Assembly (NCBI GenBank): GCA_004294465.1
Contig: REAV01000172.1
Span: forward strand, 1-13,119
DNA from: Sphingobacteriia bacterium
GTDB lineage: Bacteria; Bacteroidota; Bacteroidia; Chitinophagales; Chitinophagaceae
Length of the DNA stretch: 13,119 nt
Reading direction: 5' to 3'
Translations under genes and position numbers: made by a program
In this document: in pieces, positions 9,505 to 12,682 of the stretch
Layout: every line of letters starts with the position of its first letter
How positions within the stretch are numbered: the first letter of the stretch is position 1
Notes under the pieces: generated by a model
What the model was told of the DNA's origin: nothing
What the model saw: only the letters and a program-made list of their open reading frames with translations
Databases searched by the model: none

Positions 9505-10845
9505 TTAATTTTGGTCAATCAACTTCATCAAAAGTCCTTGCAACCCTTTGGAATTAGGGGGCAGCGCATTCAGGTTAACTATTTTGAATGCTTTGTCAAT
9601 CAAAATCATTCTTGGTATAGAAACAATATGATAATCCTGAAGATTATTTCTATCCACTATATACTCGTATTTATAAATATTTTTTTTCTTTAGATAAGCC
9701 ATCCATTGATCTTTGTCATCGTCAATTGAAATGGAGAGAACCACTAGATCTTTATTATCCTTGAATAAATGTATCATACTATCTAAATAAGGCCTGTTTT
9801 GTATACATGGCCCACACCAAGTAGCCCAAAAATCAAGATAAATAACTTTATTCTTAAAAGCTGAAAGAGAAACTTTATTGCCAGTAAAATCTGTTAAAAT
9901 AAAATCTTTTGCTTTATCCCCCACATTGATCTTTGTAAGCTCATCGATCGTTTTAATTAAAGCGTTTTTATAGGTGATTGTTTTTACTTGAATAGCCTCT
10001 TTTTTAAGTGCATTTATCTCATTTTTATTTTCTAATGAAAGGGCTTTGTCTTTAATCTCATTACATTTTATCCAATCCTGAATTTTTTTTTTTTTTTTAG
10101 TTCCATTAGGTTGATACTTAATTAGTATACCCAAAATATTTCGATACACAACCAACTGCAAATTTTCTGCTTGCAAAAAATTAATAGAATACTTTTTAAT
10201 TAATGGAACAGTTAAAGAATCAATTTGCTTTTTATAATAGGGTAAACTATCTTTTCTGATTTTCTTGACATAAGTGTAATAAAAAGATATATTTGACAAA
10301 CTATTAATTAAATCTGCATTACATCTAGCTAATTCAAGACGAAAGAATTTACTATCTACTTCCTCTTTAATAGCTAAAAGCTCTTTATTTCGATTATTAT
10401 ACTGTTTTAATACATATTCAATTGTTGATGGAATAGTTGACTGAATTCCATCTTCAGCTTCGAGGTAAGAACCTTGTTTTGGATATGGAGTATTTTTTAG
10501 ATAGGTGTTTTCAATAGAGTGTGTGCCATCAAATAATGCTTTTTGTGGATTGAGATAATCTATTGTTAGCCTAATTTGATCACTGGGTGATAAATAAAGG
10601 ATGTTTCTTCCAATTCGAAAATAATTAGCCTGGCTTAATGGAAAACTAATTTTAAATGAGGAATTACTATCAGTAACTATTTTTCTTTGCCCATCTTCAA
10701 TATTTATACCTTCAAAATCAGATTTATCTTCAACTAATACAGCATTATTAAAGTTATATAGATAACCGTTTAAATGAACAGAACTCTTTTTTTGTCCATA
10801 AATAACATTTGAAATAAATAATAAAAAGAAGAAAAGTTTTTTCAT
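9505..10845 (-). CDS. Secreted TlpA-like thioredoxin-fold oxidoreductase
   Basis: This 446-aa protein has a signal peptide (MKKLFFFLLFISNVIYGQ) and a C-terminal thioredoxin domain of the TlpA/ResA/AhpC-TSA type from about residue 308: GDKAKDFILTDFTGNKVSLSAF, then YLDFWATWCGPCIQNRPY with the redox pair Cys344/Cys347, LSISIDDD, and the cis-proline in VSIPRMILID (Pro411). The first ~300 residues are a helical/strand region typical of the N-terminal parts of large Bacteroidota TlpA proteins and are not assigned. It should work in the periplasm or outer envelope as a thiol-disulfide enzyme. It lies directly downstream of the six-cysteine double-glycine peptide, suggesting a role in oxidising or isomerising that peptide, though generic redox work is possible. 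A run of 16 A residues in the coding strand encodes Lys250-254. The gene looks more AT-rich (sampled lines about 30-32% GC) than metH. Confidence 0.88.
   Translation of the reverse strand: MKKLFFFLLFISNVIYGQKKSSVHLNGYLYNFNNAVLVEDKSDFEGINIEDGQRKIVTDSNSSFKISFPLSQANYFRIGRNILYLSPSDQIRLTIDYLNPQKALFDGTHSIENTYLKNTPYPKQGSYLEAEDGIQSTIPSTIEYVLKQYNNRNKELLAIKEEVDSKFFRLELARCNADLINSLSNISFYYTYVKKIRKDSLPYYKKQIDSLTVPLIKKYSINFLQAENLQLVVYRNILGILIKYQPNGTKKKKKIQDWIKCNEIKDKALSLENKNEINALKKEAIQVKTITYKNALIKTIDELTKINVGDKAKDFILTDFTGNKVSLSAFKNKVIYLDFWATWCGPCIQNRPYLDSMIHLFKDNKDLVVLSISIDDDKDQWMAYLKKKNIYKYEYIVDRNNLQDYHIVSIPRMILIDKAFKIVNLNALPPNSKGLQGLLMKLIDQN
10083..10098 (-). repeat. 16-nt homopolymer inside the oxidoreductase gene
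   Basis: Sixteen consecutive T on the plus strand (A in the coding strand) encode Lys250-Lys254 and the first base of Ile255. A one-base gain or loss would shift the frame before the CGPC active site (344-347), switching the thioredoxin domain off. Such tracts are prone to replication slippage and also to sequencing error. Confidence 0.9.
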
Positions 10846-10854
10846 AATAATTTT

Positions 10855-10892
10855 TAAAAAATTGGTTAGCTAATTAAAATAGCTAACCAATT
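10855..10892 (-). terminator. Intrinsic terminator/attenuator between peptide gene and oxidoreductase gene
   Basis: A perfect 13-bp stem, AATTGGTTAGCTA (10860-10872) with TAGCTAACCAATT (10880-10892), encloses a 7-nt loop. Read in the minus direction it is followed by a run of about six T, the form of a Rho-independent terminator. It begins 7 nt after the peptide stop codon and ends about 10 nt before the oxidoreductase ATG. With no other room for a promoter between them, partial read-through would make much more peptide mRNA than oxidoreductase mRNA. Confidence 0.75.
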
Positions 10893-10899
10893 GATGATT

Positions 10900-11106
10900 C
10901 TAAAATCTAAAACAAGCCTTTATTGTTTTTGAGGTATCAGTTCCACATACACCTGTTCCACAATATCTATCTACAGGACAATCTGCATGAGATGAACAAC
11001 TATCGTTACATGGATCAATTTCATCAGTTTTACCTTCTCCACCAATTAATTTTTTCTGAGCATTTCTACTCAAAACAACTCCAAGTTTTTCAAATTTCTG
11101 TTTCAT
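10900..11106 (-). CDS. Double-glycine leader peptide with six-cysteine core (bacteriocin-like, undescribed)
   Basis: This 68-aa product splits into a 23-residue leader MKQKFEKLGVVLSRNAQKKL then IGG, and a 45-residue core. The leader has the Bacteroidota double-glycine pattern (LSxxxxKKLxGG) cut by C39 peptidase domains of ABC exporters. The core begins EGKTDEIDP and has six cysteines spaced C-x3-C-x5-C-x5-C-x4-C-x10-C, ending KACFRF, enough for three disulfides. The central SSHADCPVDRYCGTGVCG resembles small cysteine-knot-like or WAP/EB-type repeats in pattern only. It has no long hydrophobic stretch, unlike pore-forming class II bacteriocins. Upstream are an HlyD adaptor and a peptidase-type ABC exporter; downstream is a thioredoxin-like enzyme. 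It has its own promoter and a structured leader RNA. Function could be antibacterial, signalling or protease inhibition; I cannot choose among them. Confidence 0.8.
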   Translation of the reverse strand: MKQKFEKLGVVLSRNAQKKLIGGEGKTDEIDPCNDSCSSHADCPVDRYCGTGVCGTDTSKTIKACFRF

Positions 11107-11162
11107 AATAATAGTTTAAGCCATCCATTTATCATGTATGGCGGTTAATAATAATTGATCCT

Positions 11163-11275
11163 ACAGCTTTAAGCATCAGCAGGTTTTTGGCTCGCCCAAC
11201 CACTTAATCGTCACCAAGTGTAGAACCGTTAGACTTTTCTTTTGGGTTCTATGCAAAAGAATTCATTAAAGCTGT
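11163..11275 (-). ncRNA. Multi-hairpin leader RNA upstream of the double-glycine peptide gene
   Basis: On the minus strand a perfect 10-bp closing stem, ACAGCTTTAA (11266-11275) with TTAAAGCTGT (11163-11172), encloses three consecutive hairpins. They are TAGAACC/GGTTCTA (11245-11251 with 11221-11227), CACTT/AAGTG (11216-11220 with 11201-11205, 10-nt loop) and TTGG/CCAA (11196-11199 with 11187-11190, loop GCGAG). The first and second hairpins abut directly, and a single nucleotide separates the second from the third. TTCTTTTG with CAAAAGAA (11254-11261 with 11237-11244) can form instead of the first. A further hairpin GCCAT/ATGGC (11138-11142 with 11120-11124) lies between this element and the ATG at 11106. 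The layout is that of a four-way-junction cis-regulatory RNA about 57 nt upstream of the gene. I cannot place it in any known class. Confidence 0.45.
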
Positions 11276-11285
11276 TAAGTATAAA

Positions 11286-11316
11286 GAAATATACAAAATT
11301 TGCAAGGGGGTACAAA
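11286..11316 (-). promoter_or_regulatory. Promoter of the peptide gene
   Basis: On the minus strand, TTTG (11313-11316), exactly 19 nt, then TATATTTC (11286-11293) matches the Bacteroidota TTTG-N19-TAnnTTTG promoter with one mismatch. Initiation near 11279 would put the whole leader RNA (11163-11275) at the start of the transcript and give an untranslated leader of about 170 nt. The promoter sits just after the HlyD stop codon, so the peptide gene can be expressed independently of the exporter. Confidence 0.6.
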
Positions 11317-11326
11317 TGTCCCTTTT

Positions 11327-12682
11327 TTATCTCTTCCATAATCCTCTCCATTGATATAGTAGCCGATCGGCAAGTGAAGCATTTTCAGTAATGATTTCAG
11401 CTATGCCAGATAAATTGTTGCTAAATAAAATTTGTTTTTTATAATTTGTAACTAACCCATTTGGTAATACAACCTTAATTAAGAAGGCTGTATCTCTATA
11501 GGGCACAGCAGGTATGTTAGTGATGATTCCATCGAGTACGCCAAACTCATTGCGCTGATAACTGTTGAGTGCAATATGTACTTGCTGCCCTTTACTGATT
11601 TTTCCAAAGTTTTGTTGCGATGCCAATACCTCTGCAAAATAACTGGGCTGCGACGGAATGATGTAAAATAGTTCCTGACCTGCTTTGATCCAACTATTGG
11701 TTTGATAATAACTCGCCATTTGTATCTTACCTGTTTCCGCAGCGATGATCATATATCGGTTCTTCCATTCTGTGATGGCCGTTTTTGCATTGAATAGTGC
11801 TGTAATAAAATTCTGCTGTATATCATTAGCAGTTTTAGCAATCTCAATTAATTCTTTATGTTTAGAGATTGCACTATTGTTTTGATTGATAGTACCTGCG
11901 TCTACTTGCACTAATTGCTGTTGTTTGGCAATAACGGCAGATTTGTCTTTGTTTAGTTCAAGCGGGGCTATTACTTTTTCTTTTACCAATCCTTCGTTGA
12001 TGGTAAGTAAATGCTGCTGCATCTGTAAATCTTGTTCTATGAGTTGCTTTTGCGTTTGAGCATTTTGATTGAGTGCTTGAATGGTGTTTAATTCCTTTGC
12101 TATGGTTTGCTTCTTTTGTTCAAAATACCCTTTGGGTGTAGACCACCCTAATTGATAGACCTGTTGAGTCAGCTCTTGATAATTTTTTTGTATATCACCT
12201 AAAATATTGAGTGCTGGTAGTGTTTGTGCATTGCTCCACCATGCATTAGTTGAAGAGTTATTGGAAGTTTTTAGATTCTTCAACTGTGCTTCTATCCATT
12301 TGTCTAAAAGCAAAACTTGTTCGTAATCTGCACTGCTCTGTATAATTCCTAGTAGCGCTCCTTCTTGTACTTGATCGTTATCTTTCACAAACAATGCTAC
12401 CAGTTTGCCTTCTGATTTACTCATTACCTGTTTGGGTAAATTATTACCCACTATTCTTACAGGGGCTTTGATGATATCAGGGTATTGAATAAAAAAGCTT
12501 CCTGTAAACAATAATGCAATGATGATGAAGAATAATGCAATACCATTTCGTACCATCCATGCAGGCCTGGTGCTGATGATCTCTCTTACCTCACTACTGT
12601 AAATCCGATCTGCCTCATCCAATCTTTCTACATTGGCTGCTTGTAGCATATCATCTAAACTATATGTTTGATCTGTTGGCAT
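11327..12682 (-). CDS. HlyD-family adaptor protein of a peptide exporter
   Basis: The 451-aa protein is a membrane-fusion (HlyD-type) adaptor that links an inner-membrane ABC exporter to an outer-membrane channel in type I-like secretion. A ~43-residue cytoplasmic N-terminus (SLDDMLQAANVERLDEADRI) is followed by one transmembrane segment (about 44-66, VRNGIALFFIIIALLFTGSFF). Then comes the first half of the lipoyl-like domain (about 85-118, KSEGKLVALFVKDNDQVQEGALLGIIQ), a long Gln/Asn-rich coiled coil (about 125-300), and the returning lipoyl half and beta-barrel (GKIQMASYYQTNSWIKAGQELFYIIPSQ, ISKGQQVHIALNSY). This topology matches HlyD partners of bacteriocin exporters. It starts 20 nt after the ABC gene stop, clearly one operon. 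A long coiled coil is as expected for reaching a TolC-type partner, which is not in the window. Confidence 0.92.
   Translation of the reverse strand: MPTDQTYSLDDMLQAANVERLDEADRIYSSEVREIISTRPAWMVRNGIALFFIIIALLFTGSFFIQYPDIIKAPVRIVGNNLPKQVMSKSEGKLVALFVKDNDQVQEGALLGIIQSSADYEQVLLLDKWIEAQLKNLKTSNNSSTNAWWSNAQTLPALNILGDIQKNYQELTQQVYQLGWSTPKGYFEQKKQTIAKELNTIQALNQNAQTQKQLIEQDLQMQQHLLTINEGLVKEKVIAPLELNKDKSAVIAKQQQLVQVDAGTINQNNSAISKHKELIEIAKTANDIQQNFITALFNAKTAITEWKNRYMIIAAETGKIQMASYYQTNSWIKAGQELFYIIPSQPSYFAEVLASQQNFGKISKGQQVHIALNSYQRNEFGVLDGIITNIPAVPYRDTAFLIKVVLPNGLVTNYKKQILFSNNLSGIAEIITENASLADRLLYQWRGLWKR

Follow-up and report, generated by a model that had tools for sequence, protein, structure and literature searches.

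Introduction

RNAs of the downstream-peptide motif and glutamine riboswitch group sit upstream of short open reading frames, contain a pseudoknot and have glutamine as their ligand. The structures that stabilise or process mRNA between two cistrons, those of the puf operon for example, are simple hairpins, and the viral intergenic IRES is a compact pseudoknotted domain placed at a set distance 5' of an internal start codon. Among the Bacteroidota, translation is initiated largely without Shine-Dalgarno pairing. The downstream-peptide motif is catalogued as Rfam family RF01704 and comes from cyanobacteria, as given in PMC2864571. Surveys of intergenic regions have also yielded orphan riboswitch candidates, which were recognised when the sequences 5' of particular genes were compared; the function of many of them is unproven (main texts of PMC11109978 and PMC8632094).

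Here, we analyse an RNA element of about 107 nucleotides (nt) that lies between the genes of peptide-export loci in the Chitinophagaceae. As with the orphan candidates presented in those two main texts, it was found by comparative sequence analysis 5' of particular genes. It resembles the downstream-peptide motif in being a structured RNA 5' of short open reading frames, and differs from it in the lack of an Rfam match, in its phylum and in its association with exported Cys-rich peptides. Like the puf-type structures, it stands between cistrons of an operon that must supply its products in unequal amounts, but it has an interlocked fold, conserved loops and covariation. The likeness to the viral IRES is one of layout, with no homology claimed; the element is bacterial and lies about 30 nt from the ATG.

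The first-pass annotation of this DNA had remarked that the RNA fitted no known riboswitch class, and the comparison with Rfam agrees with this: 4227 families, at gathering score, gave no match in the window or in 16 relative loci, and a permissive search of positions 10880-11400 returned three snoRNA matches only, all far below gathering and all on the other strand. Searches of the open literature turned up no account of an element of this kind. The main texts of PMC11109978 and PMC8632094 contain no words beginning with Bacteroid, Chitinophaga, bacteriocin or Flavobacter, and the part of PMC2864571 covered here makes no mention of Chitinophaga or bacteriocin.

The Peptide-Export Locus

The window, the whole stretch of 13,119 nt that was analysed, carries on its minus strand a gene for a double-glycine-leader peptide of 68 residues with six cysteines (10900-11106; leader MKQKFEKLGVVLSRNAQKKLIGG...), the leader of which ends in ...KKLIGG. 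The 3' neighbour encodes a TlpA/AhpC-TSA-like thioredoxin protein (9505-10845, minus strand; Pfam Redoxin and AhpC-TSA), and the 5' neighbour of the element encodes an HlyD-family adaptor (11327-12682, minus strand; Pfam HlyD_3 above cut-off, TIGR01843 below it). The components of a double-glycine, C39-processed peptide export locus, namely a C39 ABC transporter, an HlyD adaptor and a GG or AG leader, were all found: HlyD_3 is in the window, and the Peptidase_C39 and ABC domains are in the relative L018 (Pfam), from which the transporter was read, the window's own ABC gene being cut by the window edge. The peptide has no NCBIfam match at E 1 and no Pfam match above cut-off. There is a weak match to a conotoxin family of Pfam (10900-11106, E 0.0019, below cut-off), which probably reflects Cys spacing only.

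Between the HlyD gene and the peptide gene lies the intergenic region considered here (11107-11316, minus strand). Directly 3' of the HlyD stop codon there is an inverted repeat, AAGGGGGTACAAATGTCCCTTT (11304-11325), that is terminator-like on the plus strand; similar repeats were seen by eye 5' of the element in L002, L008, L009, L050 and L055.

A Pseudoknotted Fold

A structured RNA does precede the peptide gene, as first proposed, but the structure then drawn for it is wrong. The drawing spanned some 113 nt, with a 10-bp closing stem around three hairpins; the conserved fold occupies about 107 nt (11266-11160). The intergenic region of the window folds at -42 kcal/mol (z -3.04), as good as which none of 200 shuffles was found, and the element core alone has z -2.26, with 3 of 200 shuffles as good. 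The covariance model R1 matches 11160-11266 on the minus strand with 115.3 bits (E 2.9e-23); the window copy is among the 15 from which R1 was built.

The element consists of three interlocking helices, a, b and c, which form pseudoknots, and two hairpins, d and f, all first proposed by eye from the earliest copies. Read from 5' to 3', its strands run a, b, a', c, b', d, d', c' and are followed by GCCAA and hairpin f; helix b crosses both helix a and helix c. In the window all parts are on the minus strand, and the percentages given here are the proportions of alignment cells that are paired (alignment A4, described below). The 5' strand of helix a, UUCUUUUG (11254-11261), pairs with 11237-11244 (95.7%, with double-sided change in 8 of 9 pairs). 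Within the loop of helix a, UAGAACC (11245-11251) forms helix b, a pseudoknot, with GGUUCUA (11221-11227; 92.0%, 28 double-change cells). Helix c, the second pseudoknot, is formed within the loop of b by GUCUAAC (11228-11234) and GUUGGGC (11194-11200; 98.0%, with double-sided change in 6 of 7 pairs) and encloses hairpin d (11201-11220; 94.8%, 5 of 5 pairs). There follow a conserved GCCAA (11187-11191), unpaired in the model and 96-98% identical in all five columns over 50 sequences, and hairpin f (11161-11182), which has a 4-bp stem (11182-11179 with 11164-11161; 95.5%, 3 of 4 pairs) and a conserved loop, UGAUGCUUAAAGCU. A further hairpin had been placed just before the ATG and is present there (11120-11142, minus strand), both in the window copy and in most copies with a long spacer; once it is removed, 30 nt remain between element and ATG in the window copy.

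How the original drawing came to differ can be followed stem by stem. Its 10-bp stem (11266-11275 with 11163-11172) is perfect, and no other Watson-Crick stem between the two genes is longer, but it is not the conserved structure. It had been thought unlikely to arise by chance, yet a stem that long occurs in 8 of 300 dinucleotide shuffles. Across 55 rows of A4 (its 56 rows minus one with too little upstream sequence), ten base pairs are found in the window row only, nine in one row, seven in three rows, which are one copy read in three overlapping loci, and three to six in fifty. The 8-bp pairing of 11254-11261 with 11237-11244 exists; it had been taken for an alternative that competes with the first hairpin, but it is the conserved helix a and crosses that hairpin (b) as a pseudoknot. 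The third hairpin (UUGG/CCAA) has no covariation in either register tested: 66.3% of cells are paired in the window's register, with one double-change cell, and 64.3% one column off, with none, both proportions being about as in shuffles. Helix c (11234-11228 with 11200-11194), the strongest of all, was absent. In the predicted minimum-energy fold the closing stem and the third hairpin take the place of the pseudoknots, a kind of structure that this type of folding is unable to represent.

Compensatory Change and the Selected Strand

Covarying pairs in homologues had been named beforehand as the test of the proposal, and they were found, above both shuffled and slid controls. Alignment A3 (40 rows) was modelled on c, d and f only. 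In it, 90.3% of the cells of the unmodelled helix a were paired and 5 of its 9 pairs showed double changes; the two parts of helix b were 98.0% and 87.5% paired. Alignment A4 (56 rows, 50 of them distinct) was fitted to a, c, d and f; helix b was never part of any model. Its 50 distinct sequences have 95.2% of their pair cells paired; double-sided change is seen in 27 of 32 pairs, and double-change cells number 242. None of 500 shuffles was as high on any of five measures, and the slid controls reached at most 49.5% paired. For helix b alone, no shuffle among 500 was as high in paired cells or in double-change cells, while its number of double-change pairs (5) and its pair types were equalled in 28 and 277 of the 500.

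On a tree of the 50 sequences we counted about 63 pair-to-pair double changes (16 in a, 4 in b, 22 in c, 15 in d and 6 in f) against 2-9 for slid partners, a count that is only rough because the tree was built from the same alignment. Over all helices, G·U or U·G occupies 101 cells and A·C or C·A 21, an excess which indicates that the selected molecule is the RNA of the peptide's strand. Helix b taken alone is reversed (6 G·U against 10 A·C) and is the weakest part of the fold, for which misalignment of divergent copies may be partly to blame. By compensatory change above the shuffled and the slid controls, the element is a conserved structured RNA.

Copies and Their Distribution

We count 50 full copies. 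They come from 24 genomes of the Chitinophagaceae, which belong to 8 genera: the window's genus contributes 33 (14 of 147 genomes searched), and seven other genera contribute 17 (ten genomes). When 100 genomes, among them that of the window, were searched by nucleotide sequence, 16 copies were found in 6 genomes, five of which have two to five copies, most of them just 5' of a different small peptide gene. Within the genus, R1 returned 35 rows from those 14 genomes, comprising the 33 full copies, one half-copy and one fragment. In wider samples, R1 matched 9 of 294 genomes of the family, the window's own among them, and a second covariance model, R2, matched 13 of 396 genomes of the order and 2 of 395 of the phylum, one being the genome of the window and the other, G214, a member of its family; the filters in these large searches were stricter, and weak matches are lost by them. 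Phages and plasmids gave no match to the window's copy.

Two of the R1 matches in the family, G237:C9 and G327:C61, we judge to be due to chance, since they have no double-glycine peptide behind them and lack the helices; fitting copies stand elsewhere in both genomes (R2). A pattern applied to genome contigs proved too loose, with at least 118 stretches found; among the 80 loci listed for it, six hold eight strong R2 matches (E 3e-12 or better). The count of 50 excludes two weak hits, L201:9219 and L196:7648 (E about 0.04), the fragment in G114, the half-copy in G058 and the divergent candidates L215, L216, L217 and L229.

The half-copy (L021:3321-3405, G058:C129) carries, in place of its left half, the terminal part of a different double-glycine peptide gene, and the peptide gene 3' of it is intact, a structure that suggests exchange inside the element. 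In genome G036 (L017, L018) a single region holds five cassettes, each made of a VKOR fusion or TlpA-like gene, an element and a different Cys-rich peptide; an ORF which we take to be transposase-like (L017:13057-14354) lies between two of them, and another, presumably of the same kind to judge by eye, is near a copy in L023 (4676-5503).

Flanking Genes and the Distance to the Start Codon

The 50 copies were sorted by reading the flanking sequence. Intact peptide genes of 59 to 89 residues with 4 to 8 cysteines follow 39 of them, and the leader ends in GG or AG in all but one (38/39). In two more copies the peptide gene that follows is broken, by an early stop in one and by the loss of its ATG in the other, and in four the next gene is itself TlpA-like, the peptide gene being missing (L022:6357-6464, L035, L043 and L053), which may represent peptide loss or a second target. 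Of the rest, one precedes an insertion sequence, two precede nothing recognisable and two are at contig ends. This context bears out the early suggestion that the RNA is attached to peptide-export loci.

On the 5' side, 28 copies begin between -25 and +26 nt from the stop codon of an upstream ORF on the same strand; for the other 22 the nearest such stop is further off, masked or not found. The upstream gene is often a Peptidase_C39-VKOR-thioredoxin fusion (Pfam, one example) or a TlpA-like protein; in the window this place is taken by HlyD, at a distance of 60 nt. The UAG stop of the upstream gene forms the first three bases of strand b in L194, L195, L196, L197 and one of the copies in L200. 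The first-pass annotation had given the element its own promoter. As a general feature this finds no support, since those 28 of 50 copies sit at the junction of two open reading frames and start no more than 26 nt from the upstream stop, which leaves little room for a promoter there. The putative promoter in the window is a 9-of-12 match, of which 6 occur in 10700-11500 against 3.9 +/- 2.0 expected in a scan whose motifs do not cover Bacteroidota promoters.

From the end of the element to the ATG, the 39 intact cases measure 26-36 nt in 20 copies, 42 and 45 in two, and 49-74 in 17. One of the 20 short spacers (L019) could also start at 53, and in the 42- and 45-nt cases the earlier ATGs are out of frame or soon meet a stop. 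The spacers are A/T-rich, and the 20 of 26-36 nt fold at -3.8 kcal/mol or weaker. The longer spacers mostly contain a hairpin, and when it is subtracted 12 of the 17 come to 30-34 nt, eight of them to exactly 30; the other five come to 2, 2, 2, 10 and 23, partly because the program folds these spacers differently. Eight short spacers have weak hairpins (-0.1 to -3.8 kcal/mol), and if these too are subtracted 8-20 nt are left, so that the procedure has little meaning there.

VKOR-Fusion Loci and Divergent Candidates

A search of 244 genomes of the family for the VKOR fusion gave 49 matches in 36 genomes. Thirty of these loci were examined: five have an R2 match right after the gene, four hold divergent candidates and 21 have neither, from which it follows that the element is not essential to the peptide system. 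The candidates were sought with a descriptor, a home-made layout of the crossing helices a-d that has no sequence content. Directly after the VKOR-fusion gene it scores 24 in L216 (1 of 1000 shuffles as high), 25 in L217 (0 of 1000) and 27.5 in L229, the last without a shuffle control. R2 has no match on these three at E 10 or better. L215, which is very like L217, was missed by the descriptor and has a weak R2 match (E 0.01). Nine VKOR-fusion loci from other families gave no descriptor hit of 22 or more.

The background of the descriptor weakens these candidates. Over L194-L233, 16 of 7365 windows outside the R2-matched copies score at least 24, and 13 of the 16 have no relation to the element, although one of them scores as high as 26.0; of the 28 R2-matched copies themselves, only 18 reach 24. 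The scores of L216 and L217 are thus not outstanding by themselves, and what favours these two and L229 is that they are positioned exactly where an element is expected. We regard L215, L216, L217 and L229 as candidates for further divergent members.

Other structures were noticed after VKOR-fusion stops. In L233, L237, L238 and L214, from other genera or families, a small hairpin and then a possible H-type pseudoknot come before the peptide gene; the arms differ in sequence from one locus to another and nevertheless pair. When ten regions were tested for this pseudoknot, in four of them 9, 1, 15 and 18 of 100 shuffles were as good and in six there was nothing or worse, and we treat it as only a lead in other genera. 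By eye, a palindromic hairpin stands immediately after the stop in L206, L212, L230, L231, L233, L234, L237 and L238, with a self-complementary centre (for example CGCG, GGCC, GCGC or GUAC).

Discussion

On the comparative evidence, the element is a previously uncatalogued class of RNA whose fold is interlocked. So far it is known from a single bacterial family, where it goes with secreted Cys-rich peptides of a bacteriocin-like kind. The reading of its role that we favour, with somewhat better than even confidence, is that of a new class of cis-acting pseudoknotted intercistronic elements of Chitinophagaceae peptide-export loci, which would act on the next cistron, normally the double-glycine Cys-rich peptide gene, through translation initiation or mRNA stability. 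The intergenic place, the short A/T-rich gap and the RNA-strand signature together favour these two routes; a control of translation, which was among the options of the first-pass annotation, would fit the spacing data best, and the element probably sets the amount of peptide that is made. The domain would act after transcription: its rigid fold would keep the ribosome-binding region of the peptide gene open at a set distance, or shield the peptide part of the mRNA from decay, or both. A small substrate peptide could then exceed the enzymes or the transporter encoded by the same transcript, and such an excess is a plausible reason for the element to exist. In the five copies where the upstream stop falls within strand b, one would expect the ribosome that terminates there to unwind helices a and b, and the two genes could be coupled in this way.

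The conservation of GCCAA and UGAUGCUNAAAGCU implies that something is recognised, the possible partners being the RNA itself, the ribosome, a protein and a ligand, and the conserved loops would be equally compatible with the binding of a ligand or of a protein. One could imagine a riboswitch or protein-binding aptamer in which these two motifs form a pocket, for a redox or envelope-stress signal for example, that alters access to the peptide start; the first-pass annotation had suggested that a cell-density or envelope signal may be what the RNA senses. Strong conservation outside the modelled helices, while the helices themselves vary, is as in aptamers, and some copies have the further hairpin near the ATG. 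We nonetheless consider this reading doubtful, since we see no conserved expression platform (20 of the 39 spacers being the short, weakly folding ones), and the one alternative pairing that was tested, the third hairpin, fails. A transcription-attenuating leader or terminator riboswitch would have an intrinsic terminator before the gene; the scan of 10700-11500, made in the window only, found no terminator-like site on the minus strand, and the sole one is on the plus strand.

The rigid domain might also be a bacterial IRES-like element that docks beside the 30S at a set distance, brings ribosomes to an internal cistron with no need of a Shine-Dalgarno sequence and is switched open or shut by the ribosome finishing the upstream gene; we think this unlikely. 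Less likely still is a self-cleaving ribozyme, or a structure for processing or for blocking exonucleases, that would part the peptide mRNA from the upstream cistron. Interlocked pseudoknots of this kind occur in small ribozymes and in decay-blocking RNAs, the element places about 107 nt of them between cistrons, and a 5' leader of about 30 nt would remain; but Rfam, its ribozymes included, gave no match, no cleavage site can be assigned and the strand order presumably differs from those of the HDV-like and pistol folds. That the element is a trans-acting small RNA lying upstream of peptide genes by happenstance would suit a compact folded RNA with conserved loops, but is very improbable given that 39 of 50 copies precede a peptide gene, several in one genome, and that 28 of 50 have little room for a promoter of their own. 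A DNA-level site, either a single-strand fold or a recombination hotspot that shuffles peptide cassettes, might be read from the several copies per genome in repeated cassettes, the half-element in L021 that is joined on behind a different peptide gene, a pair of copies from one genome whose sequences diverge directly 3' of the element and the transposase-like ORFs near some copies, but it is the least credible reading of all, as the predominance of G·U over A·C shows that selection acts on the RNA of the peptide strand and the spacing to the start codon also speaks against it.

The element has two uses for the biology of this group. As a sequence tag, it points to small peptide genes that annotation may miss. 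And with a conserved fold about 30 nt before the start codon within operons, the control of expression at the level of the single cistron in the Bacteroidota would become directly testable.
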